A DNA stretch of 39,372 nucleotides, from NCBI GenBank assembly GCA_019456225.1, contig VRUI01000047.1:1-39372 (forward strand), read 5' to 3'. The translations under genes and the position numbers were made by a program. Below the pieces are notes generated by a model. That model saw only the letters and a program-made list of their open reading frames with translations. It was not told the DNA's origin and ran no database searches. The stretch's first letter is position 1, and each line of letters begins with the position of its first letter. Origin of the DNA: Planctomycetota bacterium. GTDB lineage: Bacteria > Planctomycetota > Phycisphaerae > Sedimentisphaerales > Anaerohalosphaeraceae. This document shows positions 2 to 37,820 of the stretch, in pieces.

Positions 2-3000
2 AGTCAGAATTACCAGTGGCACGAGGCAGCCGAAACTGCGGAAAAACTTTTCGCAAGCAAAGGCGGTTCCAACAGCCAGAATGCCAAAAAGCTCGTTACT
101 CTCTACAGAAAATCCCTGCAAACCGATAAGGCTATCAAATGGGTGAACCGCTGGAAGGAACTTTCGCCTGGGAGCACTACTCCGTGGATGGTTCACGCCG
201 ATATTCTCTATGCAAACGGAAAATCTACCGAGTCGATCAATACTTTGCGAATTGCGGTGCGTAAATTCGATGCCAATGAAGAACTGCTTACCAAGCTCGC
301 TCAAAACTACAGAAATACCGCCAGGTATGCAGACGCTAAGCGTATCTACTGGAAGATGTACGAAAATAGCGAGTCGATCTCAGACAAGCTCACCTGGGTC
401 GAGCAGCTTGCAAGCATCGCGAGAGAAACAGGTACGTTAAATACGCTTACCGAACAGTTCAAGCAGAGAAAACAGCAGGACAGGATCAGCGTTCTGCCGA
501 GGCTTGCGCTTGCCCGGATATATAACCGTTCGGAAGATTACGAGCTTCGGCGGCGTGAGCTTATCGAAGTTAGCCGTCTTAAACCGGACGATATCTCTGT
601 GATCTATGAGATCGCGAAACTTGAGGAAATGGCAGGCAGATGGCAGGACGCGATTACCACTCTTAAAAAGGCCAAAGAGTTTGACACTACGACCAAGACC
701 GATTACAAGATCGCTCGTCTTCATATGGAGTACGGTAATGAGGAACAGGGCATAAAAATGCTTCTGGACCTTGCCGGCGGATACGACGCTGACCCTCGCC
801 AGGCGGAATCACTTGCCGATATGCTTATCATGGGCGGGTATCCTAAGATGGCGGTGAAATATCTCGACGAAATAATCGCCAAGTATCCGGCTGACTGGCG
901 TATTAAGTATCTTCGCGCGATTGCCTTAGAGGAGCAGGATAAGGTTACAGAAGCAGTGGAGATTTACTTGTCTTTGCTTGGCGAAGACACGGAGATTAAG
1001 CTTGGAAAGAGCAAACAGAACAACCCATACGCTGCGCAAGCACATTATTTTGTCGAGCTAAAGCGTATCGTTCCTCCGCGTGCGGTCGATTTCTGGATGA
1101 ACATGAACTACTCCCACATGGCATATTCGTATATGCAGCAAAGGAATCATTACCGCGGTCCGAGTATGTCGGCAAGGCAGCCGCTGATACAGATACCGCA
1201 AACTCTTGAGATGCTCAAGTCGTTTAGCGTTGTTCATATCCTAAGCATAAAGAGTTATCTTGACGAGGACGAGGGTAAACAGATCGGCGAGAAACTGTCA
1301 GAGGCGGGGATATCAAATGCGGAACTTTTCGCCGAGCTTACCCTGGACGGCAATAACTACTTTAACCAGAATACGGCGATGATTCAATTGCTTGAAAAAT
1401 ATCCGGATCATGAGATTCCGCTTGCTCTGTCGGCGTGGATGGGACATCAAATGATCGATCCGAATTTATGCCTGAGGCAGATTAATAAATTCAAAAAGAG
1501 CTACCCTTTCCTTGCCGCGATAGCCGGTATTAAGTATTATTCGATCGCCGATGAAAAAGACGAGAAGATTCTTGCCGAGTCCTTTAAGATGCTTGGAAGC
1601 ATTGAAAAGCCGACATTGATGGGCGTTCAGCTGCTGATACAGAGCGCCCAGAGGTTTATGAATGATAACTCCGATGAAAATAAATCTGCTCAGAAGAAGC
1701 TTTGTTCCCTGCTGATCGATTGGAGTGAAAAATACGTAGATACACAAAATCAGAGTTATATGCCCCAGTATATTTTTTCGACGATCTCGCAACTGGCGAT
1801 CAAGGGCGGCGACTACGAGATGTTTGCCGAGTTAATTAACAAAGAGTTGGCGAGATTTAAAAAGAAGGCCGCTAAGGCAGGACCGCAAAATATTAATATT
1901 TACTCCGGAGGTTATGGAAGTGTTACCGTCTTCGGCAGCGGCAGGCATGGAAACAATCTTTTTATACCACTGACTTTTCCTCCGATGCAGCTTCCTGGTT
2001 ATCCCAACTATTTGCTACAGTTGCTTGCCGGGATGAACAATGATCACTATATCAGGCAGATGAATCTTGATCTGGATGAACTGGTTAAAATTGCCGACAA
2101 GATCGAAGATCCCCTTCTTAGAGTTTACCTATATCACTCGACCGGCAAAACCGAAGAAGAGGAAAAACTCTTTACCAAACTTGCTAAGGACTCGCCGAAA
2201 GACGGTGCCGTGACGATGTACAAGGCGGCGAGAGCCTTTAGTAAAGAACAATTCCATATCGCCGTAACTGCAATAGATACGATCCGGAAATCGACCGGCA
2301 ATCGGAAAATAAAGCAGGGTTACGACAAGGTATTAGCAAGTGCGGCGGTAAGCTTTTTCTCTCTTGGGGCAGAGGAACAAGCGAAAAAATGCACGGATGA
2401 GGAACAAGCGAAGATAAAAGAACTGGGTCAGAAGGCTCTGCTTCGTTTGCGTAAATCCACTCTTGCAAGCAATCAGAAAGCTCAACTCTCTGAAGCGATG
2501 CGAACTCTTGGCCTGGCAAAAGAAGCCAATAAGATGGACAAACTAATAGCCGCCGCGGCAGCGACCAGTCACGCACCGGCCCCTTCTTATAGCGGCGGTA
2601 TTATGCCTTCGAGGAATATGAGCTATGACCAGGCAAAAATCGAAAAACTAATTGCTTCGGGTAAGACAGACGAAGCGTTTAAAAAACTCAAGAAGTTCTT
2701 CGAGGGTCACGCAAAGAACGACCTGATGAATATGGGTAACAATAGTTACTACCAGGTCAGGAACCCTAAGCAGTACCTCCAGCAACGGAGCCTTCTTAAG
2801 GAAATGGTTGCCGTTTGCAAACCAAAAAACAATACTTCCTCGAGGGTCTGGCAGGTTTATGCGAAAGTTTGCGAATACCTCGACCAGACCGAAGAGCTTA
2901 AAAAGGCGTGGGCAAAGGTGCTTGAGCTTAAGCCGAAAGATCCGCAGGCGAATCTTTACGCGGCGATGTACGCGCTCGATGACGACCCTAATACCGCCGC

Positions 3001-6000
3001 CGATCACATCAAGAAGATACGCAAAAACAGAATCCCGATGATGTTACAGAGTCTCGATGCGATGTTTAATTATTCGCATGAGAATTATAAGATGCGTTTT
3101 ACGGCGTGCAAGCTGGCAATCGCCCTGCTCAAGCATCCGGGTATCGATGGCAGGACGGACCTGAGCTATTCTTCCAGGGTGCTGCAGCATATGGAAGGCT
3201 CGTTATATATACGCACCCAAAATAAAAGCTTTAACATCAACGGTATTTTTACTAAAGCACAAAAACTTGACCCGGACTCTCAGAAGATATGGGACGAACG
3301 AGAAAAGCTTTTTAAAGAACTACTCGACATTCTCTATGAAATACCGAGCGTATGCGACCGGGCATATATCTGCAAGATCAGGCTTGCCAGGAGCCGTGGA
3401 ACTTATGACAACAACAAGGCTATCGCTATGGCCGAAGAAACGTTGAAACGCTATAAGTTTGCTCAGCAAAGGCATTCATACAGCAATTCCATGAATTCCA
3501 CAGCCCCGATATCTGCTTGTGAGATACTGCTTGAAAAGGCATTGAAGGACGGAAACGTAGATGAGAAATGCGCAGAGATCGTCGAGATACTCAAGAAAAA
3601 CAGAAACACAAATCATGCCAGGCAGTTTAAGGCTCTGGTGAAACTGTATACCGTTTCAGCGGAAGAATTTGGCGAGGCAGCAGCGAAATACGGTCAACAG
3701 TTCCCCTATAGCTATCAGTCTGTGATCGTCTCGGACAAACAAGGATATAAGCATACGTTCATTATCGCCGGTAAACGCAAAGATATTGACCAGACAAGTT
3801 TTATTTGCAAATTGCTGCAAAACAAAAGCAAAAGATACAACATGAATATTCAGTACAATGATCTTACCGTGCTTGCTCAACAGGTACTCAAGGACAAAGG
3901 TGCAGACAAAGCCGAAGAGTTCGTCGAAAAGGTCTCAACGGCGCTTACCACAACCGCCGACAAACGCAAGGCTTATTGCGATAAGAATTACAATCCGAAC
4001 CAGAGTCATCAACAAGGTACGAAGAACTACATGGTCTATACTTATTACAACTTCCTGAACTACCTTACCAATAACAACGATCCGGATCTGACCAGGATCG
4101 TGTTTGGGCATATAAAGTATATACCCAGATTGCATATGGACAGGGTTCGCAATATCTCGAGCAGAATATATAGCGTCATACGTAGCAGCGATACCAATAA
4201 GAGCAAAGAGCTTATAGTCAAGATCGGGCTGGTTGGTACGCCTGAAGAGATGATCTTTACTCCGTATGTCAGAAACAGCGAACCCTACCTTACTATTAAT
4301 AGTTACATCGTAAATAGACTCAGGGGCAGCAGTTCGTATAAAAAAAGATTTGTTGAAGCACTTGGCAAATGCCCGGACAGTTTCGGTAAAAAGCTGGTAT
4401 TGGCAGTTGTCGAACGCAATAACTCCAAGGCTCACTCGGCGCTTAAGGAGAATTTCGAGGCGATCAAGAAACTAAGCGCTAAAAAGCAATCCGATCTAAT
4501 AAGCTTCATACGCGAAACGACCGGGGCAATTAAAGGTTTAGGCGATATTGATAAAGATCCCGACGAAGTCGATAAGTGGTACGCCTCTATCGTAAACAAA
4601 GCGATCAGTGAAGAACTCGAAAGTTTCATGAAAATGACGCCGGCGAAGTTATTTACCAACAATATGCATGAAAGCCGTTTCCATGATATGGTTGCCAAGA
4701 TAGCTATAACGGTAATCCATGATCCGAACAGCTTCGATAAGCTTATGGCCCGCGCCGACGAGATGTACAAAAAAGGGATCCGCCGGAGAAGTTTCTCCAA
4801 GATCCAGGGGCATTACAGGAATACTTTCATAGAGAGGTATATCGACCGCAGTTCAAATCAGAAATCGCCGGCTGTCTGCAAGTTTTATGTCGATATAATA
4901 CGGAAAAAAGGCTGCACGCTGCGCGAGATCAATGATTACAGGATAAGGCGGTTGTTCGAGGGGCATATCCGGCAGAACCGTGATTCTTATAAGCCCGGAG
5001 ATAACAAAAAAGCTTTCACTTCCCTTGTCAACTTTGTCGGGCAGGTTTACGGCAATAAGAATGCCACCATCGGTTTCGGAACTACTTTAAGAAGCTATGT
5101 TTTCGATTACTACAGAACCACGGACGATTTTACCAAAGTGGTTACAATGCTTGAAGGTTTAAAGAAAGAGAGCAAGTATCCGGTTATCGTTGACGAACTT
5201 ATCATAAATGCCAAAAACCGGTGGAGTGAGAGAGAACGCGACAAGGATAAGCAAAAGAAATTATACGATGATGTATATAAGTATTACCTTGCCATTCTTT
5301 CAGACGAGGAATTATCTGCGCCTTGGCGTTTTGCAGTGCACTACAATATGAAAGGTTATATTCGCAGCAAAGAAGGAAAACTAGCGTTTACACTGAAGGC
5401 TATGGATGTACTCATTAAGTACATGCAAGCCGGTAATTGTCAATATTACCAGGTATACAGGATATCCGAGAATATTATGAACAGTTATATAAGTGTCGCA
5501 CACACAGAGGAGTGGAAAACAAAAGCAAACCAGTATATCGAACTGTATTTCCAGGTTTGGTCAAAGATGCAGAAATCATCAAGTCGCTCCAGTTCTAACG
5601 ATAATCTCATATTTAAACTCCTTCGGCTTCATTTTGAAGCGAACGGCGGAGAAAAGCCTGACGTTGTGGACCGTTTAGTAAGGGTCTCGGGGGGCAATCT
5701 ATGGAAGACACCTGAGATCTACGCGATCATGGTTAATTACGGCCAGCATGACAGGGCTCGCAAGGCTTTGGTCAATAATAAGCATACCTGGAACTTAAGC
5801 TCGTCCAGTAATACTATCAGGATGACTAAGGAATTTGAGGCAAAATCTGATGCCTTCATCGACAGCTTTGACAACCCGGAAGACGCACTTTTCGCGAAAA
5901 TCACCATGTGGCTGAGAAGCGACAGCGGTAGTAATCTAAAGATAAAAATGAAGGACAGGGTCATCCAGCTGGCGAAAGATTATCTTGAGCTTGTCGAGAG

Positions 6001-9000
6001 TAAGTCGTCACAGGGTAATATTTCGATAAATTCGGATTTGGTAATGCAGCGTCTTCTTGCATATGACTATGTTTACCCGGTTCTTAGGAAACGAATATTC
6101 AAGTTGTGCAAAGACAAAGACATCCTGGCATCGATGGCGAATGATAATTCCAAGTTGAAAAGTTACAACCAGGCATTGGCGACCGCTTATTTTAATATCT
6201 GCTCAGCAGAAGGAAATGTTGAGCCGCTTATCAAGACCATCGAAAAGATGGGTGTTTACTGCACTCCAAACGGTCGTTATCGTTACGAAGTTACCAGCTG
6301 GGTACGGACCTGGACAAGAAGTATATATGATAAGATCAGGAGCAAAGGGGTAAAATCGACAAAGCAATTAACCGCATGTTCCAAGCTTTTCGAGGCAACA
6401 TTCAATGAGTCGCTTAAACTTGGGAGGAATTACCGGGGGAATTTATCCCTTGGCAATCTCGGCAGAAGCTACGGCACTATCGCCCTTGCGTCCGGTGAAT
6501 TCGATAAATTCGAAAAGACGATAAGCAAATTGAACAAGCAGGATATGAACGATGTCAAGGGATACGTTAACCTTAGCTCGCTGCTTTCTGAATATCGCCA
6601 GCTTAGCAGATATGCTACTCTTGACCCTGTTCTGCTTAGTAAAAGCCTGGCGAACATGCACAAAAGCGAATACTTTAAGAACGATTTCAAGAATCAGGGA
6701 ATCGGCGTTACCACAAGCATTTACTCACACATGAAGCAAAGATACAGTATCGACATCAAGTACCTGATCAAATGTGTTGAGAAGGAAAATAAATACATCA
6801 AGCCCATTGATGCGGGGTACCTGTACTTTGCCGCTAAAGATCCGGCCAAGGCTATCGCGGCGTGCAGCAAAGGGATCAAAGAAGCGAAGACCGACCTTGA
6901 AAAGACATCGCTGCTGATCGACATGGCTACCTACAGCGTCAAGAGCGATCCTAACAGTTATGAGCAGTGCTGGAATGACATACAGCCTTATAAGGACAGG
7001 CTGGACCAGAGGCTTAAGGAAAAATATAACAACACTTTCAGGGGTAAGATCAGTGAGGCCGTCAAGAAGTTAAACGACATAGCTAATAATATTAAAACCG
7101 GCAAGAATTTGATCGATATGCTTAATGACGATAAGTTGACTTTGACAGAGAGACTTACTGTTTACAGCAGTATGGCACACAGGACCAATCAATTAAAGGA
7201 CCGTGATAATGATGCTATTCTAAATGCTATTATGGATACGCACCTGAAATTCATGCAGGACGGCGACCTTGATTTTGCCCTGCCATACAGCATCTCTAAT
7301 CATTTCGTCATGGACTTCGCAAACCTTCAGCACACAGATAAGTGGAAGGAAAAAGCCAATCAGTTCATGGATCTGTTTTTCCAGCATTGGGAAAAGAGAC
7401 AAAAATCAAGGCATCGCATCGCAACGAACGGTCCTATCGTATTTAAGTACCTGCGCCTTCATTTCGCGGCTAACGGCCAGGGAAAACCGGAAGTTATCGA
7501 CCATGCACAGAAAATGTCGGGAGGCGGTCTCTGGAGAATCCCGGACACTTACGCCATGATGGTACAATACGGTCAGCAGGACAGGGCTTGCGAGGCATTG
7601 ATGAAACACAAACACCTAATATTTACGGGGTCAAATAATTTCTTCAAAATGTCTCCTGAATTTGAGGCCAAAGCCGCCGCATTTATCGACAGTTTCGAAA
7701 AGCCCGAAGCCGCCCTGGTCGCAAAATTGGCTATGTGGGTAATAAACGACGAGACGAAAGATAATCAGCATGAAAAGCTTAAGCTGAAAAGAAATGAAAG
7801 GCTAATCCAGCTAGCAAAGGATTATCTGGAATTGACGACAGGCGAAGACGGCAAGATCAAGACCAATGCCACGTACGATTCGGTATTCCTGCATCTGCTG
7901 GCACAGCAACATGTTCGCCCGATCATAAAAGAACGGATTTTTAAGTTGTTCAAGGGGCAGGATTTCTTTGCTTTGATGACGAAGGCGGATAATAACTCTA
8001 AGAGAAATTACTACCTGGCCCTGTCGAACGTATATTTTAGGATTTGCATTGAAGAGGGTAACGCCAAACCCCTGACCGACACTATCGCAAAGATGATGGA
8101 TTACTGCACACAGGATAATAACAGAAACTATAGCAAAGTCACCGGATGGGTGCGGAATTGGATACAACCTTTCTATGACAGTTTTATACGGGATAAGGAG
8201 CTTAAAGAAAAATATTTAACTTCAGTATATCAGATATACCACGCGACCTTCATCAGTGCAGAAAAGATTGAAAGAAATTACCGTGGGAATTTGTCTTTGA
8301 GTGATATCGCAACATACTACCGGGTTCTGGCGATGGCTGAAGGGAAAATGGATGAATTCCTGAAATCGGTAAGCAAACTCAACGACCGGGATAAGCGGGA
8401 TATCGATTATTATATCAGGCTTAGTAAAATGCTTCGGGATTTCCGCAGCGGAAGTATAATTAATAAAATCACTCCCGCGAAATTCAGCAAGGGTATCTCT
8501 GACATTTGCGCCAGTGAAGTTTATAAAGCCGAATTGAAGAAGGCCGGCGTCGGTGAGATATTGAGCGTTTATTATTATCTTCAGCAGAATCATAGATATG
8601 ACATTAAGTACCTGGTCAAATGTCTCGATGGTGAAAATAAATACTTAAAACCTATCGATGCCGGATACCTATACTTCAATGCAAAAGATACGAAAAAGGC
8701 AATCGCCGCGTGTGACAAGGGAATCAAAGAAGCAACGACCGACCTGGAAAAGACGGCGCTGATCATCGATAAGGCGACCTATAGCATGAACTCCGACCCT
8801 GACAGTTTTGAGCAGGCCTGGAAGGAAATACAGCCTTATAAGGACAATCTTGACAGCAGACTCAAGCAAAGATTCGATACTGCTTTCAGTAAGATAGCTG
8901 AAGATCACAAGAAACGGCTGTTGCTAATTTCCAAAAAAATAACCACAGAAAAGGCCTTTGTCGAAGCCGTAACTGACGAAAAACTTTCTTTGAGCGAGCG

Positions 9001-12000
9001 GCTTACTATTTATCAAAAAGTCAGGTCCGGTGGATACGACTTCAGGATTCATAATAAAGAGGCAACCGGTCATGTCGTTATGGATATGCAGCTTAAATAC
9101 ATGCAGCAGGATAACCTGGATTTGAAACTTGTGTACAAGGCATCTATAAATTTCATCGAAGACTATATCACCCTTGAGCATACTGACAAATGGAAAGAAA
9201 AAGCTAATCAGTACCTCGAACTGTTTTACCAGCGATGGGTAGAGATGCAGAAATCAAGCGACAGCTTTTCAACGAGCAAATATCTTATTTTCAGGTATCT
9301 TATGCTTCATTTCGAAGCGAACGGAGTCGAAAAACCGGAAGTTCTCGACTATGCACTGAAAATATCAGATGATACTCTCTGGAAGATTCCGGAAACTTAT
9401 GCAATAATGGTTAATTGCGGCCTGTATGACATGGCCAGGAAGACGCTTCTTGACAACAGGCAGAAATTACACAGTCACTCATATCAGATTTTAAAAATGA
9501 CGCCGGAGTTGGAGGCAAAATCTGCTGCCTTTATCGAAAGTTTCGAAAGTCCCGCAGACGCCCTGTTCGCTAAACTGGTTATGTGGACCCAGCGTGACGA
9601 TACGAAGGATGCTCTGTATGAAAAACTCAACTTAAAGCAGGATGAAAGAATTGTCCGGTTAGCGACTGATTATCTTGAGGTGACAACAAATCCGGATGGG
9701 AGTATTCAGTCAGATGACAACCTGAAAAGGCTGTTTATGCATTTGCTTGCCAGTTACGGCAGCACCTATCCTATCCTTAAGGAACGCGTTATCAAATTGG
9801 CCGAAGGACAGGATTTCCTTGCTCAGATTTCGAAAAACCGCGATAGCCGGCTGAGAGCATACTACCAGTACCTGGCACAGGCGTATTTTACTTATTGTGT
9901 CGAAGAAGGTAATGCCAAGCCCATGGTAGATACAATGGCAAAAATGGAGGGCTACTTAAAACCCGGTGATGGGGCCTATACTTCAGTAGTTAGTTATGTT
10001 CACAATTGGATGCATCAACTTGTCGGCAATTTTTATAACACCGACGAGATTCCAGAAAAGCAATTAACCGCGTTATATCAGATATGCCATGCGGCTTTTA
10101 ATAATACAACAAAGCACGAAATGAATCGGCATTTTGGCAGCCTTACGGGCTATTATGCAGATATGTCGATGGTTGAAGGTAAAATGGATGTATTCTTAAA
10201 ATCGATAAGCGAACTGAGTAGTCAAGATATGCGGGAAGTAGCAAATAGTATCAAACTTAATACCTTGCTTGAGAACTTCTGCAAGCATGGAGTATTGAAT
10301 AAAATTCCACCTGCCAGATTCAGCAAGGGTATTTCTGAAATTTGCGGCAGTGAACTCTACAAGGCCGAATTGCAGAAAAACGCGATCGGCGAAATTGAGA
10401 GTATTTATTTACATCTTAACGAGGAATATAAATATGGTATTAATTACCTGGTGAAATGTCTTGAGGGCGATAAGAAGTATCTTAAGCCTGTAGACGCTGC
10501 TTTCCTGTATTACCATGCTAAAGATATGGAAAAATGTATCGCAGCCTGCGACAAGGGGATCAAAGAAGCAAAGACCGACCTGGAAAAGGCAGCGTTGATC
10601 ATCGATAAGGCGACCTATAGCATGAACTCCGACCCTGACAGTTTTGAGCAGGCCTGGAAGGAAATACAGCCTTATAAGGCTAAACTGAGCAAGAAGCAGA
10701 CGGAAAGATTCAATACGCTCTTTAAGGAAAAGATCACCCAGACTGAAAAGCAGCCTGTAGAGCCGAAGAAAACCGCGGCACGTTTGAGTAAGGAAATGAC
10801 AGTCGCAAAGCATTTACTCGGTTTCCTGAAAGACAATAAAATTTCCGAATTAAAGCGGCTCGCCCAGTACAGGAATCTGCCGAAAGAGATCAAGTACCTC
10901 AATGCAGAAGATACCCTCCATGGAGTTATGGACCTGAACCTGCAATATTTGGAGCAGGATAACACGGAATTTTCTGAAGAATACAAAAAGACTTTGTGTT
11001 TTGTCGAGGGGTACATTAAGCTTGAACATACCGAAAAATGGAAAGAGAAGGCCCGCCGTTACCAACGGCTGATTAACGAGAAGTACCTGAAGTCAAATAG
11101 CCGTTCCAGTTTTATTCATGGAGTATTCGCGCTCAATCTTCTTCGTCTTCATTTTGAGGTAAATGGCAGTGAAAACCTGAATGGGGCTGAGGATATATTG
11201 GTAATGTCTAAAGGTTCTCTATGGAGAACGCCTGAAACCTACGCTATTATGGTTAAGTACGGCCAACAAGACAGGGCACATAAAGAGTTGGTCGCTCAAA
11301 AATCGCCATGGGTATTCCATTGGGGCTACACTTTTAGCATGACTCCGGAATTTGAGACCAAGGCCGAAGCTTTTATCAAGAGTTTTGAAAAACCTGACGA
11401 TAAGTTTAATGCAGCACTAGCCATGTGGTTAAGAGACGATGGCAACGGGAAACTTAAGCTTTCCAGGCAAGCCAGAATTGCCAGCATCCTTGAGGAAGCC
11501 AAAAAACCGGCATCTAAACCGGAAATCCTGAAAAATATTCAAAAAGCCGCTTCGCTGTACTGGGGGCATGTCAATGATCCGGATAAGGACATGATGATGT
11601 GCGAAATAGCCATTGCAGCGGCCCAGAAACCGCTTGATCGGGCCCGGCTCCTAATTCAAAAGGCCAATCTCGCTAAAAAAATGAATAAAAAAGATGTCGT
11701 AGAGGCTGCATGGCGGGAAATTCAGGCGATTAAAGATAAAATAGTGGATAAAAAGCTGATCGAAGAGTATAATAAAGTTTTTGCCGAGCAGATAAAAAAA
11801 CAGGCTTCCGAGCAAGAGAACAACAGTGAGGCATCGCGAGAAGATAAAATAAAAGCTGTAAACGCACGGTTGCGAGAATTGGCTGAGCAAATGAACGAAA
11901 AAGCAAAGGAAGGCGCAGAGGTTGAAGCAAGGATGAAGTCAATATCTGAAGATGTACACAGGACACTAAATGACATAAATCGAAAAGTTGATGAAGATAA

Positions 12001-12097
12001 AGCAAAAAAAGAAGAAGAGGCCAAACGAAAAGCAGAGGAATTAAAAAAGCAAAAACAGGTAAAAGGATTTGTCTTTAAAACTATAATAGCAGCATAA
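2..12097 (+). CDS. Giant TPR/alpha-solenoid repeat protein (5' end outside window)
   Basis: The frame is open from base 2, so this is the 3' part of a longer gene; the GTG at 143 is internal and should not be read as the start. At least about 4030 residues are visible. The first ~400 residues show classic tetratricopeptide spacing (for example helices around LAQNYRNTARYADAKRIYWK and around YEIAKLEEMAGRWQDAI). The C-terminal half consists of four copies of a ~610-residue unit (listed separately), and the last ~90 residues are a charged coiled coil rich in Lys and Glu. No catalytic motif was recognised. The stop is 17 bases before the next start, and the MoxR/DUF58/VWA genes follow on the same strand, so it probably works with them, perhaps as an envelope scaffold or substrate-binding solenoid. 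That role is inferred. Any signal peptide would lie upstream of the window. Confidence 0.85.
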   Translation, partial: SQNYQWHEAAETAEKLFASKGGSNSQNAKKLVTLYRKSLQTDKAIKWVNRWKELSPGSTTPWMVHADILYANGKSTESINTLRIAVRKFDANEELLTKLAQNYRNTARYADAKRIYWKMYENSESISDKLTWVEQLASIARETGTLNTLTEQFKQRKQQDRISVLPRLALARIYNRSEDYELRRRELIEVSRLKPDDISVIYEIAKLEEMAGRWQDAITTLKKAKEFDTTTKTDYKIARLHMEYGNEEQGIKMLLDLAGGYDADPRQAESLADMLIMGGYPKMAVKYLDEIIAKYPADWRIKYLRAIALEEQDKVTEAVEIYLSLLGEDTEIKLGKSKQNNPYAAQAHYFVELKRIVPPRAVDFWMNMNYSHMAYSYMQQRNHYRGPSMSARQPLIQIPQTLEMLKSFSVVHILSIKSYLDEDEGKQIGEKLSEAGISNAELFAELTLDGNNYFNQNTAMIQLLEKYPDHEIPLALSAWMGHQMIDPNLCLRQINKFKKSYPFLAAIAGIKYYSIADEKDEKILAESFKMLGSIEKPTLMGVQLLIQSAQRFMNDNSDENKSAQKKLCSLLIDWSEKYVDTQNQSYMPQYIFSTISQLAIKGGDYEMFAELINKELARFKKKAAKAGPQNINIYSGGYGSVTVFGSGRHGNNLFIPLTFPPMQLPGYPNYLLQLLAGMNNDHYIRQMNLDLDELVKIADKIEDPLLRVYLYHSTGKTEEEEKLFTKLAKDSPKDGAVTMYKAARAFSKEQFHIAVTAIDTIRKSTGNRKIKQGYDKVLASAAVSFFSLGAEEQAKKCTDEEQAKIKELGQKALLRLRKSTLASNQKAQLSEAMRTLGLAKEANKMDKLIAAAAATSHAPAPSYSGGIMPSRNMSYDQAKIEKLIASGKTDEAFKKLKKFFEGHAKNDLMNMGNNSYYQVRNPKQYLQQRSLLKEMVAVCKPKNNTSSRVWQVYAKVCEYLDQTEELKKAWAKVLELKPKDPQANLYAAMYALDDDPNTAADHIKKIRKNRIPMMLQSLDAMFNYSHENYKMRFTACKLAIALLKHPGIDGRTDLSYSSRVLQHMEGSLYIRTQNKSFNINGIFTKAQKLDPDSQKIWDEREKLFKELLDILYEIPSVCDRAYICKIRLARSRGTYDNNKAIAMAEETLKRYKFAQQRHSYSNSMNSTAPISACEILLEKALKDGNVDEKCAEIVEILKKNRNTNHARQFKALVKLYTVSAEEFGEAAAKYGQQFPYSYQSVIVSDKQGYKHTFIIAGKRKDIDQTSFICKLLQNKSKRYNMNIQYNDLTVLAQQVLKDKGADKAEEFVEKVSTALTTTADKRKAYCDKNYNPNQSHQQGTKNYMVYTYYNFLNYLTNNNDPDLTRIVFGHIKYIPRLHMDRVRNISSRIYSVIRSSDTNKSKELIVKIGLVGTPEEMIFTPYVRNSEPYLTINSYIVNRLRGSSSYKKRFVEALGKCPDSFGKKLVLAVVERNNSKAHSALKENFEAIKKLSAKKQSDLISFIRETTGAIKGLGDIDKDPDEVDKWYASIVNKAISEELESFMKMTPAKLFTNNMHESRFHDMVAKIAITVIHDPNSFDKLMARADEMYKKGIRRRSFSKIQGHYRNTFIERYIDRSSNQKSPAVCKFYVDIIRKKGCTLREINDYRIRRLFEGHIRQNRDSYKPGDNKKAFTSLVNFVGQVYGNKNATIGFGTTLRSYVFDYYRTTDDFTKVVTMLEGLKKESKYPVIVDELIINAKNRWSERERDKDKQKKLYDDVYKYYLAILSDEELSAPWRFAVHYNMKGYIRSKEGKLAFTLKAMDVLIKYMQAGNCQYYQVYRISENIMNSYISVAHTEEWKTKANQYIELYFQVWSKMQKSSSRSSSNDNLIFKLLRLHFEANGGEKPDVVDRLVRVSGGNLWKTPEIYAIMVNYGQHDRARKALVNNKHTWNLSSSSNTIRMTKEFEAKSDAFIDSFDNPEDALFAKITMWLRSDSGSNLKIKMKDRVIQLAKDYLELVESKSSQGNISINSDLVMQRLLAYDYVYPVLRKRIFKLCKDKDILASMANDNSKLKSYNQALATAYFNICSAEGNVEPLIKTIEKMGVYCTPNGRYRYEVTSWVRTWTRSIYDKIRSKGVKSTKQLTACSKLFEATFNESLKLGRNYRGNLSLGNLGRSYGTIALASGEFDKFEKTISKLNKQDMNDVKGYVNLSSLLSEYRQLSRYATLDPVLLSKSLANMHKSEYFKNDFKNQGIGVTTSIYSHMKQRYSIDIKYLIKCVEKENKYIKPIDAGYLYFAAKDPAKAIAACSKGIKEAKTDLEKTSLLIDMATYSVKSDPNSYEQCWNDIQPYKDRLDQRLKEKYNNTFRGKISEAVKKLNDIANNIKTGKNLIDMLNDDKLTLTERLTVYSSMAHRTNQLKDRDNDAILNAIMDTHLKFMQDGDLDFALPYSISNHFVMDFANLQHTDKWKEKANQFMDLFFQHWEKRQKSRHRIATNGPIVFKYLRLHFAANGQGKPEVIDHAQKMSGGGLWRIPDTYAMMVQYGQQDRACEALMKHKHLIFTGSNNFFKMSPEFEAKAAAFIDSFEKPEAALVAKLAMWVINDETKDNQHEKLKLKRNERLIQLAKDYLELTTGEDGKIKTNATYDSVFLHLLAQQHVRPIIKERIFKLFKGQDFFALMTKADNNSKRNYYLALSNVYFRICIEEGNAKPLTDTIAKMMDYCTQDNNRNYSKVTGWVRNWIQPFYDSFIRDKELKEKYLTSVYQIYHATFISAEKIERNYRGNLSLSDIATYYRVLAMAEGKMDEFLKSVSKLNDRDKRDIDYYIRLSKMLRDFRSGSIINKITPAKFSKGISDICASEVYKAELKKAGVGEILSVYYYLQQNHRYDIKYLVKCLDGENKYLKPIDAGYLYFNAKDTKKAIAACDKGIKEATTDLEKTALIIDKATYSMNSDPDSFEQAWKEIQPYKDNLDSRLKQRFDTAFSKIAEDHKKRLLLISKKITTEKAFVEAVTDEKLSLSERLTIYQKVRSGGYDFRIHNKEATGHVVMDMQLKYMQQDNLDLKLVYKASINFIEDYITLEHTDKWKEKANQYLELFYQRWVEMQKSSDSFSTSKYLIFRYLMLHFEANGVEKPEVLDYALKISDDTLWKIPETYAIMVNCGLYDMARKTLLDNRQKLHSHSYQILKMTPELEAKSAAFIESFESPADALFAKLVMWTQRDDTKDALYEKLNLKQDERIVRLATDYLEVTTNPDGSIQSDDNLKRLFMHLLASYGSTYPILKERVIKLAEGQDFLAQISKNRDSRLRAYYQYLAQAYFTYCVEEGNAKPMVDTMAKMEGYLKPGDGAYTSVVSYVHNWMHQLVGNFYNTDEIPEKQLTALYQICHAAFNNTTKHEMNRHFGSLTGYYADMSMVEGKMDVFLKSISELSSQDMREVANSIKLNTLLENFCKHGVLNKIPPARFSKGISEICGSELYKAELQKNAIGEIESIYLHLNEEYKYGINYLVKCLEGDKKYLKPVDAAFLYYHAKDMEKCIAACDKGIKEAKTDLEKAALIIDKATYSMNSDPDSFEQAWKEIQPYKAKLSKKQTERFNTLFKEKITQTEKQPVEPKKTAARLSKEMTVAKHLLGFLKDNKISELKRLAQYRNLPKEIKYLNAEDTLHGVMDLNLQYLEQDNTEFSEEYKKTLCFVEGYIKLEHTEKWKEKARRYQRLINEKYLKSNSRSSFIHGVFALNLLRLHFEVNGSENLNGAEDILVMSKGSLWRTPETYAIMVKYGQQDRAHKELVAQKSPWVFHWGYTFSMTPEFETKAEAFIKSFEKPDDKFNAALAMWLRDDGNGKLKLSRQARIASILEEAKKPASKPEILKNIQKAASLYWGHVNDPDKDMMMCEIAIAAAQKPLDRARLLIQKANLAKKMNKKDVVEAAWREIQAIKDKIVDKKLIEEYNKVFAEQIKKQASEQENNSEASREDKIKAVNARLRELAEQMNEKAKEGAEVEARMKSISEDVHRTLNDINRKVDEDKAKKEEEAKRKAEELKKQKQVKGFVFKTIIAA
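5398..7060 (+). repeat. Unit 1 of the ~610-residue protein repeat
   Basis: First of four homologous units in the giant TPR protein. Anchor motifs are HTEEWKTKANQY (from 5501), SGGNLWKTPEIYAIMVNYG (from about 5686) and DAGYLYFAAKDPAKAIAAC, ending near YKDRLDQRLKEKY. Limits are approximate. Confidence 0.8.
7228..8890 (+). repeat. Unit 2 of the ~610-residue protein repeat
   Basis: Second unit. The HTDKWKEKANQF anchor lies 1829 bases after its counterpart in unit 1. It carries SGGGLWRIPDTYAMMVQYG and ends with a segment (8760-8843) that is identical at DNA level to one in unit 3. Confidence 0.8.
9077..10730 (+). repeat. Unit 3 of the ~610-residue protein repeat
   Basis: Third unit. Its HTDKWKEKANQY anchor lies about 1849 bases after that of unit 2. 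It ends with DAAFLYYHAKDMEKCIAAC and the 84-base block (10596-10679) shared with unit 2. Confidence 0.8.
10925..11790 (+). repeat. Unit 4 of the ~610-residue protein repeat, internally shortened
   Basis: Fourth unit. It begins like the others (HTEKWKEKARRY, then SKGSLWRTPETYAIMVKYG) but about 260 residues of the middle are missing. The terminal helices (LDRARLLIQKANLAKKMNKK) follow directly, and then the C-terminal coiled coil. Confidence 0.7.
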
Positions 12098-20396: not shown

Positions 20397-21298
20397 GTAA
20401 CCGTTCACAGGGCATAAATGTGGATTATGGCCCCAGTAGTGATGAAAAAGGCTGATTGGAGAAATGAGCTTGGATAGACTGGTATATAAAATCGAATGCA
20501 TTTCGGCCCTGGCTGGCACAGGTTGCCATTACGGTCCAGATGCGTTCACTCCAGTTCCTGCCGTTTTCGCTGCGGGTTCCCTGGGTAAGATAACGGTCTA
20601 TAACAACAAATCGTATCGCCTGTTCAGCGAGTTTACTCAACTGCCCACGAGAGATGGTCACACCGACAACATCACGCAGAAACTTGCGAATGGTCGAAAA
20701 CGAACAGTGACAGGCGCCTTTCATATAAGCAATGGTTGCCATAAGACGCGGCCCAACCAACTGGCCTTTGTCAATGTGAGCCGGCATGGGCGCATCGTGA
20801 AACTTTTGACAATGTTCGCACCAGTAGCGAAGACCTGTATGTTGTTCAATATGAGTCGGTTTTTGAACAATTTCAACCTGTTGAACGATTTTTTCGGCCC
20901 CTTGAACCTCTTCGAGTTTACCGCCACCATCAGGGCAAACATCAAGTGTATGGGTTTGAAATGTGTCGATTTCTTCTGTGGTAAAAGGGTCTCTTTCATG
21001 CTTTGGATGTCCGGGTTGACCGCCAATGTTGCGAGAACCGTTGTTCTTTTTCTTTCGCGGCGGCTTGACAATATCCGACGATGGCGGTTTGGAAGAGGTG
21101 GACGAATTCTTCGACAGTTTAGCTACCTTGAATATGCTATAATTCATCAAAAACATAGGGATTTGCATTTGATCGAGTCGAAAATGGGCATTTTGACATT
21201 GAGTGCGTTGCTCAATACGCTCAAAATTCCCGTCAACGCCAATCAATTTGCTCAGTACTTCTTCCCATGTATCTGTGACTGTCCTGAGGAGTTACGAC
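20397..21298 (-). mobile_element. IS66-family insertion element, internally deleted
   Basis: The left end reads GTAACCGTTCACAGGGCA, about 25 bases past the transposase stop, as expected for an IS66-type terminus (GTAA start). The right end, read inward on the minus strand, contains GTAACTCCTCAGGACA, an imperfect match to the left end. Direct repeats ACGATATTAG flank both sides. At about 900 bases it is far shorter than a complete IS66 element, because the transposase is missing its core. No tnpA or tnpB is present. The exact right limit is uncertain: 21295 if the end is GTTAC, 21298 if the 8-bp repeat defines it. Confidence 0.6.
20425..21246 (-). pseudogene. IS66-family TnpC transposase remnant lacking the catalytic core
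   Basis: The frame is 273 residues against roughly 450-520 for intact TnpC. The N-terminal part is typical: LSKNSSTSSKPPSSD, IGGQPGH, and a Cys/His zinc-binding segment ending in CEHCQKFH. The C-terminal part is also typical: RFVVIDRYLTQGTRSENGR, ERIWTVMATCASQGRNAFDF. The central DDE domain between them is absent; the sequence passes directly from GQLSKLAEQ to AIRFVVIDR with the frame kept. A short repeat such as AEQA at both edges may have mediated the deletion (inference). The start is unclear: TTG 21246 is the first candidate after an upstream stop and has no evident ribosome binding site. The product cannot transpose alone. The frame overlaps the end of the prepilin frame by 14 bases. Confidence 0.85.
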
Positions 21299-22048
21299 GA
21301 TATTAGACCCATCGAGCAAAAGCGCATTTGCAGATCCAGTATTGTATACGCCATATCCATCCGGAGTTTCAGGAAGCTGACCGGAAAACTTCGCTTTCGA
21401 GACCTTGTGGAAACTGGCGAAACTATCGATTGGATCGGTGGCGTCGATAAAAAACCTTACTACCAATGCATTATCATTGAGCACGTAATTGGACAGAATC
21501 GTTGTGCCGTCTGCATCTTTCATCTTCCACATGTTTTCTTCCGACCACAAAAATGTTTCGCTTGGCGAAGAATTTATCTGTGATCTTTTGACTCCTTTAC
21601 TGTCGGTTCCTGTGATGAAACCGTTCATACTGTAACTGAATTGCGGAACAATTGGAATTGAAGAGTTGTGACCCGGATGGTTTGTGCCGAACTTACGCGC
21701 AAAAGTTGCTAATGTGGGGCAGACATTGAGTTTTTTATTTGAGATATATGGCCAGTAAGGGCCCGCATTGGAGGGCAATACATCAGGGCTCTGGCTTTCA
21801 TCATGCCACGTGCAACCAGAACTGGTTGTTCTATAAAGACTACGCCATGCAGGTGGAAATCTGTCGTCATTCTCATTGGCATATAATTCTGTGGCAAGAT
21901 AGTATTGGTGCATGTTGCTTTTGCAAAGGATTTCCTGGGCGATAGACTTTGCTTTTGAAAGTGCGGGCATGAGAATAGCCAATAACAGAGCTATAATGGC
22001 AATTACAACTAACAATTCGATCAGCGTGAAGCCTTTTTTAGTACTCAA
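21233..22048 (-). CDS. Prepilin-type protein (pseudopilin) with altered C-terminus
   Basis: A 271-residue protein. The start is TTG at 22048; an in-frame TAG two codons upstream rules out a longer form, and GGGG lies about ten bases upstream. The N-terminus MSTKKG-FTLIELLVVIAIIALLLAIL is a class III signal: cleavage after Gly6, Glu at +5 of the mature protein, then the hydrophobic stalk helix. The globular part is of the kind common in Phycisphaerae and Lentisphaerae. The end (NTGSANALLLDGSNIVV) matches the H-X9-DG processing-associated motif with Asn in place of His. The last codons run into or beside the IS66 remnant, so the final residues (STEQIDWR) may not be native. Such pilins occur in large families; the role of this one is unknown. 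Confidence 0.85.
   Translation of the reverse strand: MSTKKGFTLIELLVVIAIIALLLAILMPALSKAKSIAQEILCKSNMHQYYLATELYANENDDRFPPAWRSLYRTTSSGCTWHDESQSPDVLPSNAGPYWPYISNKKLNVCPTLATFARKFGTNHPGHNSSIPIVPQFSYSMNGFITGTDSKGVKRSQINSSPSETFLWSEENMWKMKDADGTTILSNYVLNDNALVVRFFIDATDPIDSFASFHKVSKAKFSGQLPETPDGYGVYNTGSANALLLDGSNIVVTPQDSHRYMGRSTEQIDWR
21297..21306 (+). repeat. Right direct repeat flanking the IS66 remnant
   Basis: Second copy of ACGATATTAG, matching 20387-20396. It lies within the prepilin coding sequence, at the codons for Asn-Ile-Val. Confidence 0.5.
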
Positions 22049-22482: not shown

Positions 22483-25131
22483 ATGGATCAGTTACGGAAA
22501 ACCGTTTTTTATGACAGACATTTTCAACTCGGAGCAAAGATTGTAGACTTTGCCGGCTGGGAAATGCCGATACAATACTCCAAAGGAATTGTCCACGAAC
22601 ATCTGGCAACTCGTAAAACCGCGGGATTGTTTGATGTTTCACACATGGGCAGGTTTGTATTTCGCGGCGATAGCCTGCCCTTTTTGCAGCATGTCCTCAG
22701 TAATAACGCCGCGGCACTGGATGTCGGCCAAAGTCAGTACACTTTTATCCCAAATGAAACCGGCGGTGCGATAGATGACGCATATCTATATCGTTTCACT
22801 GAAGATGAATATCTGCTGGTGGTAAATGCCTCCAACCGGCAAAAGGACTGGGAGCACTTTGAGAGTTTGATCGGGGATTTTGAATCCGTTGAAATGTCCG
22901 ACCGCACAGAAGATATCGTAATGCTGAGTGTGCAAGGGCCCAAATCCAAACAGATCGTCAGTTCGCTGATAGAAGCCGGTCCATTGCCGGAACCTATGCG
23001 AAATCGTCTTAGCACGGTGACGATAAATTCTAAAGAGGTTTTGGTCGCAAGGACAGGATATACCGGCGAGCCGGTTTGTTTTGAACTTTTCATAGATGCT
23101 GCCAATGGGCCCGAGATTTGGGATTTGCTTACCGAAGCAGGTGCTGAACCCATTGGCCTGGGAGCACGCGATACCCTCCGGCTGGAGGCGGGGCTTCCCC
23201 TCTATGGGCATGAATTAGGCAAGGACAAATACGAGCGTGAGATACCGATTTTTGCGTGTGAACTGGCAAAATTTGCGGTCAGCTTCTCATCCTTAAAGGG
23301 CAACTTCGTTGGTAGAGACGCTCTGAGCAAACAGTTTGCCGCTTTCAGGAAGATCAAAGACGGCGATTACTCGCTGCTTGAATATCTGCCGCAAATGATC
23401 CGGCCCGTAGCGGTATCGGGTAAGGGTATCGCCCGTCAGGGCAGCGGTGTGTTTACCGATGGCAAAGAGGCAGGTTATGTTACCAGCGGTACCATGGTGC
23501 CTTATTATAAATATGTTGGCGAAGGTTTGTTCAGCGAGATGACCGAAGAAAAAAAGATGCGTTCTGTATGCCTGGCACTGGTCGATAGTGACATTGCCGA
23601 CGGAGACCGGCTCGAGATCGAGATCAGGGGCAAGAAGACCGATGCGGTTGTTGTGCCTTACCATTTGAGAGGCGAAGCGCCGCCGTATGCCAGACCTATT
23701 GTTTATGACAATCTTTTTAAGGAAAAAGAATCCGCCCGCGTATCCGACGATTTACCGGCAAAGGCACTGACATTGCTGAACAAGACCGTCGATAACACCA
23801 GATGGCGGCAAAGCGAGTGCATCAATCTTATTCCCTCCGAACAGACGCAGTCGTCTATGTCGCGGCTGATCTCGATAATGGACCCTTCCGGCAGATATGC
23901 CGAGCACAAAGCTGTGAAAGCATTTTCCGAAGCTGAGGTTTTTTATTACCAGGGAACGGATTTCATCGCTGAGGTTGAACGGCTTTTGGCAGAACAAATG
24001 CAGATATACCTTGGCTGTATGGAAATCGAGGCCCGGGTTATCAGCGGCCAGATGGCTAACGCGGCGGTTTTCAGTTCGTTGGTTGATTATCTAAACAGGT
24101 CCAACCGCAAGATCGAACCGAGGCGAATTTCCAGGGTATTGAACCATCATATTATCAAGGGCGGCCATCTCAGTGCTCAACCGATGGGTGCGCTGCATGA
24201 TTTCGTGGCACATGATCCAACGACCGAAAGAGCTGCTGTGGTTAATTTCCCTGTTTTGCCTGACAATCCATACAAAGTTGATGTCGCGGCCTGTCAGGAT
24301 GTGCTCGCAGAATATAAGCCTGAGTTGATCATTTTAGGTAAGAGCCTTGTCCTGCATAGAGAACCTGTGGCCGAGATTCGCTCTATGGTCGATGAAATGT
24401 CGCTCGATTGCGTGGTTATGTATGATATGGCACATGTCCTGGGATTGGTTGGGCCTTATTTCCAGGAGCCGTTCAAAGAGGGTGCAGATATTGTTACCGC
24501 CTCGACGCATAAGACGTTTTTCGGAACTCAGCGTGGAATAATAGCTTCAAATTTCCATCGAGACGACCACAAGTGGCCCCTGTGGGAAACTGTTTGCCGA
24601 AGGGCGTTTCCGGGCAGTGTAAGCAATCATCACCTCGGTACTTTGCTGGGCTTGCTGATGGCAGCATACGAGATGAATCATTTCAAGGACGAGTATCAGA
24701 AAAAAGTAATCGCCAACGCTAAAGCATTCGCCCTGGCGCTCAAAAACACCGGCCTGGACGTCGCCGGAGATGCCGGGATCGATTATACCGAAACCCATCA
24801 GGTAGTCTTAAATGTCGGATACAGCAAGGGACCCCAAATAGCCCGCCTTCTGGAAGATAATAATATTATTGTAAATTATCAGGCAAGTCCCGAGGAAGAG
24901 GGTTTCACCGCCGCCGGATGTCTGCGGATGGGTGTTGCGGAGATGACACGATTTGGGATGCAGGAAAAAGATTTCCAGCAGTTGGCTCAATTGATTTGCG
25001 ATCTTGTTAACGGAACAAAAAGTGTTAAAGAAGAAGTGACCGCATTTAGAAAACGATTTACTAATATGAGATACTGTTTCTCGGGTGAAGAATTTACCCC
25101 TGTAATGGAAAAACTGTATCAGCTTATTTAA
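22483..25131 (+). CDS. Fused aminomethyltransferase (GcvT) - serine hydroxymethyltransferase (GlyA)
   Basis: An 882-residue protein joining two enzymes. Residues 1 to about 395 are GcvT, the T-protein of glycine cleavage, which releases ammonia and methylene-THF from the H-protein intermediate: FAGWEMPIQY, FDVSHMGR, LVVNASNRQKDW, ARTGYTGE, GARDTLRLEAGLPLYGHEL. Residues from about 420 to 882 are a PLP enzyme of the SHMT family, which interconverts serine and glycine using the same folate: NLIPSEQ, GGHLSAQPMG, DMAHVLGLV, and the PLP lysine K677 in TASTHKTFFG. The loop that in SHMT reads YAEGYPGKRYYGG is changed and longer (see findings). The start has AGGA about nine bases upstream. It is the first gene after the glycine riboswitch, with gcvH, gcvPA and gcvPB following. 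Substrate coupling between the halves is inferred. Confidence 0.93.
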   Translation: MDQLRKTVFYDRHFQLGAKIVDFAGWEMPIQYSKGIVHEHLATRKTAGLFDVSHMGRFVFRGDSLPFLQHVLSNNAAALDVGQSQYTFIPNETGGAIDDAYLYRFTEDEYLLVVNASNRQKDWEHFESLIGDFESVEMSDRTEDIVMLSVQGPKSKQIVSSLIEAGPLPEPMRNRLSTVTINSKEVLVARTGYTGEPVCFELFIDAANGPEIWDLLTEAGAEPIGLGARDTLRLEAGLPLYGHELGKDKYEREIPIFACELAKFAVSFSSLKGNFVGRDALSKQFAAFRKIKDGDYSLLEYLPQMIRPVAVSGKGIARQGSGVFTDGKEAGYVTSGTMVPYYKYVGEGLFSEMTEEKKMRSVCLALVDSDIADGDRLEIEIRGKKTDAVVVPYHLRGEAPPYARPIVYDNLFKEKESARVSDDLPAKALTLLNKTVDNTRWRQSECINLIPSEQTQSSMSRLISIMDPSGRYAEHKAVKAFSEAEVFYYQGTDFIAEVERLLAEQMQIYLGCMEIEARVISGQMANAAVFSSLVDYLNRSNRKIEPRRISRVLNHHIIKGGHLSAQPMGALHDFVAHDPTTERAAVVNFPVLPDNPYKVDVAACQDVLAEYKPELIILGKSLVLHREPVAEIRSMVDEMSLDCVVMYDMAHVLGLVGPYFQEPFKEGADIVTASTHKTFFGTQRGIIASNFHRDDHKWPLWETVCRRAFPGSVSNHHLGTLLGLLMAAYEMNHFKDEYQKKVIANAKAFALALKNTGLDVAGDAGIDYTETHQVVLNVGYSKGPQIARLLEDNNIIVNYQASPEEEGFTAAGCLRMGVAEMTRFGMQEKDFQQLAQLICDLVNGTKSVKEEVTAFRKRFTNMRYCFSGEEFTPVMEKLYQLI

Positions 25132-36011: not shown

Positions 36012-37820
36012 ATGGCTATTGAACTTAAAGTTCCAATACCCGACCAGACGACCGAAGAGGTTCGCATAGTCGAGTGGAAGAAAAACGTCGGCGATGCGGT
36101 CAAGCACGGTGACATCATACTCGAGATCGAGACCGACAAAGCCGTCATGGAAGTCGAATCGACAGGCGAAGGCACGCTTATAAAGCAGCTTGTCATCGTC
36201 GACGACATGGTGCCGGTAGGCCAGGTTATCGGCTTTATCGGCGAAGCTGGCGAAGTTGTCGATACGGCCGCTCAAGCCCCCCCATCGGCAAAATCTGCAC
36301 CGGCTCCGACAGCAAGCGTAAGCCCAATTGCCGCACCAGCCGCCGTTCAACTCGACGAAAATGTAACAGAAGTCAAGGTTCCAATACCCGACCAGACCAC
36401 CGAAGAAGTTCGCATAGTCGGCTGGAAAAAGGCTGTCGGCGATGCTGTCAATCACGGCGATGTGATCCTCGAGATCGAAACCGACAAAGCGGTCATGGAA
36501 GTAGAATCAGCCGGCGAAGGCATACTCTTGCAGCAACTCGTCGCAGTTGACGACATGATCCCGGTCGGCCAGGTAATCGGCTTTATCGGTCCGGAAGGCA
36601 CCGCCGTTCAGGCTGCCCCTGCCGCACAAGCCAAACCAGCCGCTCCGCCTGTTACGCAAGCAGCACCTTCAGATGTCACCGAAGCACCGGCAAGCCCACT
36701 TGCCCGGAAGATCGCCGCAAAGACCGGCGTTAATCTTGATAGCATACAAGGCAGCGGCGCTCACGGCAAGATCATGCGTAAGGACGTAGAAGCCGGTCCT
36801 GCAAGTGCAAGTCTCTCGGTCTATGGCGGCAGACTCTTCGCCTCGCCAAACGCTAAACGTCTGGCAAAAGATATGGACGTCGACCTAATGGATGTAATCG
36901 GCACCGGGCCAAACGGCAGGATTATCGGCACCGATGTAGAAAGTTATGGCGCCCAGATGCCTGCAAGCTCTGTTCACGGCGGCAGATTGTTTGCCTCACC
37001 GAACGCTAAAAGGCTAGCTGGCGAACTCGCCGTTGACCTGCTCGCTATCACAGGAACAGGCCCCAACAACAGGATCATCGGCGCTGATGTAATTGCTTAT
37101 GCCGAAGCGAATCCTGTCGGCGCAGTCGCTGCCGCACCGGGTCAGCCTGTTCCGGGCACAGAGGTCGAGCTTACAAAGATGCGTCGTGCAATAGGTATCA
37201 ACCTGCAGAACAGCTTCCGCGACACTCCGCACTTTAACGTTACGATGTCGTTCGACATGACAAAAGCGATGAAGGTTCGCAGCCAGCTGAACAAGGGCAA
37301 AGAAAAACCCGAGAAGGTTTCGGTCAACGACCTCGTCGTCAGGGCATGTACAGTCGCACTGAAAAAATACCCCGCCGTAAACAGCAAGTTCCTTCAAGAC
37401 AGGATCAGGTACGAAGCCGACATTAATGTCGGAGTCGCCACTGCCGTTGAAGCCGGGCTTATTGTCCCAGTGGTGCTAAACGCCGACACGCTAGGCTGGA
37501 AAGAACTGGCTGCGGCGACGAAAAATGTCGTCGGACAAGCCAGAGGCGGCAAACTCATCGGACTGGGCAAGGGAACATTCACAGTTTCAAACCTTGGAAT
37601 GTTCGGCGTTGACAATTTCACCGCGATCATCAATCCTCCAGAGGCCGCGATCCTGGCCGTCGGCGGACTGAAGGAAACAGTCGTCGCGATTAATGGAATG
37701 ATCAGCGTAAAACCGATGATGACAGTCACCCTTTGCAGCGACCACCGCGTAGTTGACGGAGCCCTTGCCGCACAGTTCCTCGGGGCGATTAAGCTTTATC
37801 TCGAAGAAGAAATTTCTTAA
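36012..37820 (+). CDS. Dihydrolipoamide acyltransferase (E2) with two lipoyl and three E3-binding domains
   Basis: A 602-residue E2 core enzyme. Two lipoyl domains (about 1-78 and 117-194) carry lysines K43 and K159 in identical ETDKAVMEVES contexts and are joined by Ala/Pro-rich linkers. Three peripheral-subunit-binding domains follow at about 227-262 (ASPLARKIAAKTG), 277-312 (ASPNAKRLAKDMDVDL) and 328-363 (ASPNAKRLAGELAVDL), each with its G-x-G-x-x-x-(K/R)-I-x-x-x-D-V ending. The catalytic acetyltransferase domain covers ~375-602, with the final DHRVVDGALAAQFL active-site motif. One binding domain is the norm, so three is unusual. GGAG precedes the ATG by about eight bases. It forms the inner core of the complex with the preceding E1 and with LpdA. 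Confidence 0.95.
   Translation: MAIELKVPIPDQTTEEVRIVEWKKNVGDAVKHGDIILEIETDKAVMEVESTGEGTLIKQLVIVDDMVPVGQVIGFIGEAGEVVDTAAQAPPSAKSAPAPTASVSPIAAPAAVQLDENVTEVKVPIPDQTTEEVRIVGWKKAVGDAVNHGDVILEIETDKAVMEVESAGEGILLQQLVAVDDMIPVGQVIGFIGPEGTAVQAAPAAQAKPAAPPVTQAAPSDVTEAPASPLARKIAAKTGVNLDSIQGSGAHGKIMRKDVEAGPASASLSVYGGRLFASPNAKRLAKDMDVDLMDVIGTGPNGRIIGTDVESYGAQMPASSVHGGRLFASPNAKRLAGELAVDLLAITGTGPNNRIIGADVIAYAEANPVGAVAAAPGQPVPGTEVELTKMRRAIGINLQNSFRDTPHFNVTMSFDMTKAMKVRSQLNKGKEKPEKVSVNDLVVRACTVALKKYPAVNSKFLQDRIRYEADINVGVATAVEAGLIVPVVLNADTLGWKELAAATKNVVGQARGGKLIGLGKGTFTVSNLGMFGVDNFTAIINPPEAAILAVGGLKETVVAINGMISVKPMMTVTLCSDHRVVDGALAAQFLGAIKLYLEEEIS

Follow-up and report, generated by a model that had tools for sequence, protein, structure and literature searches.

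What does a protein of more than 4,000 residues do at the head of an operon for a MoxR ATPase and VWA proteins? In the Bat operon (BatI, Bacteroides aerotolerance), the gene order is MoxR-DUF58-BatA-BatB-BatC/E-BatD, and BatC/E is a TPR protein. The window, the whole stretch of 39,372 nucleotides analyzed here (G000:C99:1-39372), is the start of contig C99 in a 4.45 Mb genome of 152 contigs, and it opens with an operon of six genes (table 1). The initial annotation described a TPR-like solenoid of over 4,000 residues just ahead of a coiled-coil (CC) membrane protein, MoxR, DUF58, and two VWA membrane proteins. Both points hold, with 4,031 sense codons in the open reading frame (ORF), TPRs recognized by Pfam, helical structure models, and the genes following in that order on the same strand, separated by 17, 39, 23, −4, and 42 nt from the giant gene through the VWA/GATase gene.

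Table 1. Coordinates in the window of the operon genes and of the parts of the giant protein.
Feature	Position	Strand	Description
Giant alpha-solenoid/TPR protein	2..12097	+	4,031 residues present, 5' part cut by contig end
Conserved core, residues 1-1730	2..5191	+	TPR superhelix in residues 1-330, more alpha-solenoid after; Pfam, 14-sequence alignment, AF2, Foldseek
Unit 1, residues 1731-2340	5192..7021	+	Self-comparison
Unit 2, residues 2330-2955	6989..8866	+	Self-comparison; AF2 all-helical solenoid, pLDDT 85.5
Unit 3, residues 2946-3568	8837..10705	+	Self-comparison
Partial unit 4, residues 3562-3846	10685..11539	+	Self-comparison
C-terminal tail, residues 3847-4031	11540..12094	+	Unit-end remnant, then Lys/Glu-rich coiled-coil-like stretch
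CC membrane protein, 545 aa	12115..13752	+	Three predicted TM segments, coiled-coil C-terminal half, conserved C-terminal motif; system marker
MoxR AAA+ ATPase, 329 aa	13792..14781	+	Walker A GVPGLGKT and Walker B LLADE intact
DUF58 protein, 290 aa	14805..15677	+	Without TM segment, VWA-like, MIDAS DASKS
BatA-type membrane VWA protein, 670 aa	15674..17686	+	TTG start as listed, MIDAS DNSAS, two TM segments
VWA/GATase membrane protein, 840 aa	17729..20251	+	Two VWA sites, DASES and DKSGS; GATase1-like domain

The genes downstream of the giant encode recognizable parts, except for the CC protein, which matches no family in Pfam or NCBIfam. MoxR matches AAA_3 (Pfam, 8e-62) and its closest solved sequence is 2r44; the DUF58 protein matches PF01882 (2e-36), and the BatA-type protein matches PF07584 (1e-10) and VWA. 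Hydropathy indicates membrane segments in the CC, BatA-type, and VWA/GATase proteins and none in MoxR and the DUF58 protein. Across relatives, the Walker A and B motifs of MoxR and four MIDAS motifs (one each in DUF58 and BatA-type, two in VWA/GATase) are conserved in nearly all rows compared.

Directly past the operon is a fragment like an IS66-type transposase (20425-21246, minus strand; DUF6444 match), which is adjoined by a prepilin-like gene (21233-22048). A gene at 22483-25131 (plus strand) encodes an 882-aa fusion of glycine-cleavage T-protein and a serine hydroxymethyltransferase domain; a GcvH-like frame and split GcvP genes come after it. At 36012-37820 (plus strand), a dihydrolipoamide acyltransferase (E2) has two lipoyl and three E3-binding stretches, and its last two repeats have a VHGGRLFASPNAKRLA-like segment in common.

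The giant ORF is open on its 5' side, and that limit is the end of the contig, not the start of the gene. Residues ~612–656 of relatives align with residues 1–6 of the window giant, and a search of the same genome with the N-terminus of a relative returned only the window itself and weak TPR matches. Thus, ~620 residues are missing from a protein with a predicted full length of ~4,650 residues, and, judging from these searches, the missing 5' stretch is absent from this assembly. Contig C137 of this genome (L007, 1-13678) has a second giant gene, of which 2,202 aa are present, that is also cut by a contig end in the same region. Across the first 1,000 residues of the window giant, the two proteins are 63% identical. 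The neighbors of the C137 gene, in convergent orientation to it, were read as MlaA, an RND/MMPL-type transporter, and MlaC. In the DNA common to the two giant genes, the first 60 bases are the same in both, and two of the next 60 differ. Near-identical 5' DNA of two paralogs would act as an assembly repeat, which probably accounts for both contig breaks, and the identical 60 bases also suggest gene conversion of the 5' part.

Because the gene breaks at a contig end and its paralog starts at a contig end in the same region, the ORF could in principle be an assembly artifact or a decaying repeat gene, the latter being an alternative that the initial annotation had raised. But the near-identical 5' DNA accounts for the breaks, and uninterrupted homologs of up to 4,663 codons are present in independent genomes. 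Furthermore, pN/pS is 0.255/0.639 between the window giant and its C137 paralog and 0.30–0.37/0.59–0.70 between units within the window giant, indicating that the gene is maintained under purifying selection. ORF length and pN/pS reflect neither chance nor decay. An artifact or a decaying gene is therefore rejected, with a probability that we regard as negligible.

The giant is predicted to be helical throughout the parts that were modeled. Pfam recognizes TPRs in residues ~1–330, has weak matches at a few later places, and finds almost nothing in the C-terminal units. An AlphaFold2 model of residues 1–999 (14 sequences) is an all-helical solenoid with a pLDDT of 80, to which Foldseek matched TPR superhelices (Ski3, IFT-A, and OGT; E 4e-9). 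The initial annotation had proposed predicting the fold of one unit, and the model of unit 2 (11 sequences) likewise is an all-helical solenoid. The models thus point to a superhelix of helical hairpins, an alpha-solenoid, in both the N-terminal part and the units. The fold of unit 2 was also searched with Foldseek and VIA for hints to function, and only generic importin/HEAT/ARM-type matches were returned (E ≥ 1e-3, Z ≤ 9.9), none of which stands out, so they were not read as pointing to a function. Hydropathy indicates no TM segment in the window giant, of which the N-terminus is missing. Giants do not have a common theme in net charge, as their pI spans from 4.7 to 9.7.

Units are a property of particular giants. 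Fragment self-BLAST resolves residues 1731–3846 of the window giant into 3.5 tandem units of about 601–623 residues each that are 34–50% identical, so the ~610-residue units that had been described in its second half are a real tandem. The C137 paralog, however, has one unit, at its C-terminus, and in many relatives, the short ones (1,850–2,040 aa) included, no unit is recognizable. By these comparisons, the units are a local amplification in the window gene rather than a feature of the system. A 4,663-residue giant in genome G042 (L043, 4988-18979, minus strand) has three tandem units of ~780–830 residues, and their relationship to the units of the window giant is no more than distant. Its amplification is apparently independent, suggesting repeated amplification of the C-terminal part in separate events. 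Large solenoid units therefore appear to have been amplified independently in a predicted exported bacterial protein, to 3.5 copies in the window and to three of another length in G042.

The combination of genes recurs well beyond the window. Among 161 genomes of the order searched for giant homologs, strong matches are in the window genome and 12 genomes of a sister family, and the family to which the window genome belongs otherwise yielded TPR-level matches only. Sister-family operons keep the order giant-CC-MoxR-DUF58-BatA-VWA/GATase wherever the contig allows, and giants of this family range in length from 1,854 to 4,663 residues. Named relatives are from Phycisphaerae and Sedimentisphaerales MAGs and, more distantly, from Verrucomicrobiota including Prosthecobacter. 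The full six-gene order is also present in Verrucomicrobiota and in other Planctomycetota (G503 and G177). We found no common seventh gene among the downstream neighbors of relatives.

As an independent route to further loci, genomes were screened with a profile built from the CC protein only. The profile matched in 6 of 392 Planctomycetota genomes and, in surveys based on the Prosthecobacter record, in 12 of 397 genomes of its class and 14 of 288 of its phylum. From the class and phylum surveys, 16 loci were newly fetched. In 15 of these 16, a giant of 2,963–3,882 aa is immediately upstream on the same strand, and several have 4-nt overlaps, which are typical of translational coupling; the exception is L129, which has no giant within 14 kb upstream and in which a six-frame search found none. 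MoxR, DUF58, BatA, and VWA/GATase come next as far as each stretch reaches (the DUF58 frame of L139 is unlabeled and the contig of L134 ends after CC). Conversely, CC is present in eight of nine verrucomicrobial genomes that have a giant. Divergent arrangements also exist. In L097, a TPR giant of 2,355 aa is transcribed away from MoxR and CC is last; L099 has CC-MoxR-DUF58 without a giant; and in L117 the giant is after the VWA/GATase gene and the CC gene is split by a stop. The recurrence of giant and MoxR in conserved order, which the initial annotation had suggested looking for across Phycisphaerae, thus extends to other Planctomycetota and to Verrucomicrobiota.

Divergence is also correlated among the genes. 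Over 27 operons, the pairwise divergences of giants correlate with those of CC (r = 0.91), DUF58 (0.87), and MoxR (0.83), and none of 1,000 permutations was as high as the correlation between MoxR and giant. This pattern indicates co-inheritance and is not by itself a sign of contact.

Export of the giant is predicted from its relatives. Complete giants have a signal-peptide-like N-terminal stretch followed by a conserved motif, RYxxLLxKRPxxGxLFDRFYxAWLDT (sequence and hydropathy). The window giant's own 5' end, proposed as the place to look for a signal peptide, is not in the assembly, and the complete relatives were used in its stead; the window giant is therefore predicted to be exported by a signal peptide like theirs. 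Its periplasmic placement is predicted from hydropathy and the positive-inside rule. A first gene of ~1,900–4,700 codons with this N-terminal motif is a diagnostic handle for the system.

Not all giants are in operons. Copies away from MoxR include that of C137, those of L040 and L042, and verrucomicrobial copies in L070, L072, L074, and L075, some in tandem. About ten genomes have two or more giants, and pairs of giants may be common. In L131, a second giant is in tandem upstream of the operon giant, and in L140, a second giant is divergent. The initial annotation had held that giants unlinked to moxR in relatives would speak against its reading; unlinked giants were found as extra copies only, nearly always in genomes that also have the linked operon. 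Giants may also act away from the operon, given these unlinked copies.

With a confidence somewhat better than even, we suggest that the operon encodes an undescribed Bat-like, trans-envelope MoxR/VWA system of Planctomycetota and Verrucomicrobiota, the signature of which is a giant exported alpha-solenoid serving as a periplasmic scaffold or arm. Both phyla are noted for unusual cell envelopes. The gene set, gene order, co-inheritance, signal-peptide-like N-termini of relatives, and intact ATPase and metal motifs are read from sequence, and the fold from models. MoxR would form a cytoplasmic ATPase ring with the soluble DUF58 protein as its adaptor and would power cyclic conformational changes of a complex formed in the inner membrane by the CC, BatA-type VWA, and VWA/GATase proteins. 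The metal-site VWA domains and the coiled coil are predicted to face the periplasm, given their charge distribution and the BatA-like BB0173 of Borrelia, an inner-membrane protein with a periplasmic VWA domain (PMC5700661). In NorQ/NorD, remodeling of a membrane client needs ATP hydrolysis by MoxR and an intact VWA MIDAS (PMC9976466), and by analogy VWA domains would relay hydrolysis to a client in the membrane. From the topology and this analogy together, we propose an ATPase machine that is Bat-like, spans the envelope, and includes a giant solenoid in the periplasm.

In this machine, the giant, exported by its signal peptide, would be held by the VWA domains as a periplasmic scaffold or recruiting arm. 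It would stand in for BatC/BatE, the small TPR partner encoded in ordinary Bat operons, and many envelope clients could be bound, remodeled, or assembled together on it. We infer complex formation, membrane-protein topology, ATP-driven remodeling, and the scaffold role from sequence and analogy. Topology and co-inheritance agree with the unusually large envelope machine that had been envisaged from the window, and its existence as a single physical machine is the inferred part of that idea. More tentatively, the exported solenoid of 0.2–0.5 MDa could be a long arm or ruler that is moved by the MoxR ring through periplasmic VWA proteins and that evolves in length by amplification of C-terminal modules; we regard this as possible but doubtful. 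As a conserved variant of membrane Bat/MoxR-VWA operons, the giant operon is easy to recognize by its giant, which offers a clear bait for pull-downs and a clean target for knockouts.

The main rival to a machine is that the giant is a client. MoxR, DUF58, and the VWA proteins would then be devoted, as chaperones, to folding, assembling, or displaying an oversized envelope protein, with unlinked giants as additional clients. The extra giants are mildly in favor of this, since the genomes with at least two, some of them unlinked or in tandem, nearly all also have the operon, and the best-known role of MoxR/VWA pairs is that of chaperone to specific clients (PMC9976466). But the strict first-gene position of the giant and its covariation with CC and MoxR suit a structural partner equally well, and TPR proteins of Bat operons have been suggested to act in complex formation (PMC5700661). 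Present data separate machine from client poorly, and we consider a client role rather unlikely.

Less probable still is that the locus is an ordinary Bat operon with an enlarged TPR protein, conferring the same general aerotolerance or stress resistance as in Bacteroides or Riemerella. The kinds of domains are the same (MoxR, DUF58, BatA N-terminal domain, VWA, and TPR), and the Bat-operon MoxR of Riemerella influences survival of heat and oxidative stress (PMC11834572). However, contig C47 of the window genome has a complete, ordinary Bat operon with a BatB-like, a small TPR BatC-like (468 aa), and a BatD-like protein (names from reading the sequences), and the two types of operon lie next to each other in G548, a verrucomicrobial genome (ordinary Bat-type operon at L110, 15062-19999). 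In addition, MoxRs of giant operons form one clade (support 99/99) apart from Bat-type and C108-type MoxRs, in a tree with only two Bat-type rows and long outside branches, and, according to Pfam, the six operon genes encode neither a BatB-like nor a BatD-like protein. A ternary conflict (immunity) system with the solenoid as sensor is very improbable and was rejected. Planctomycetes and verrucomicrobia do have such systems, in which MoxR and VWA proteins occur together with TPRs (PMC7159879), and there are weak matches to bpMoxR (1e-11) and EAD11 (3e-4, below the cut-off). But the AAA_3 match of MoxR is far better, the signal-peptide-like N-termini of giants are unlike cytoplasmic sensors, Pfam recognized neither an effector domain nor a third component (beta-propeller, VMAP, STAND, or FtsH), and PADLOC returned one weak AAA match and no system.

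We found no paper on such an operon in the literature searched, which covered few subscription papers. Among the described systems closest to it is Bat. Both types of operon have MoxR, DUF58, a BatA-type membrane VWA protein, a TPR protein, and likely periplasmic VWA domains. In the giant operon, however, the TPR protein is predicted to be exported, is encoded first, and has ~1,900–4,700 aa rather than a few hundred; a CC membrane protein without a Pfam family is added, VWA/GATase is in place of BatB, and BatD is absent. An operon on contig C108 of the window genome has a similar middle block, MoxR-DUF58-BatA-VWA, and ends with a coiled-coil membrane protein and a small terminal protein (names from reading the sequences). 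It differs in having no giant, a different MoxR, a different coiled-coil protein (37% probability in hhalign with that of the window, over the coiled coil only), and the extra small protein, the like of which is not in the window operon. MoxR-vWA ternary conflict systems have the same MoxR and VWA core (PMC7159879), whereas the giant operon has a predicted exported solenoid and membrane VWA proteins, with no beta-propeller, VMAP, iSTAND, FtsH, or effector recognized. NorQ/NorD and RavA/ViaA likewise pair a MoxR AAA+ motor with a VWA/MIDAS adaptor, but these chaperones consist of two proteins, are cytoplasmic, and lack an exported scaffold. The parts of the giant operon are of known kinds, and their combination is a distinct, conserved variant.
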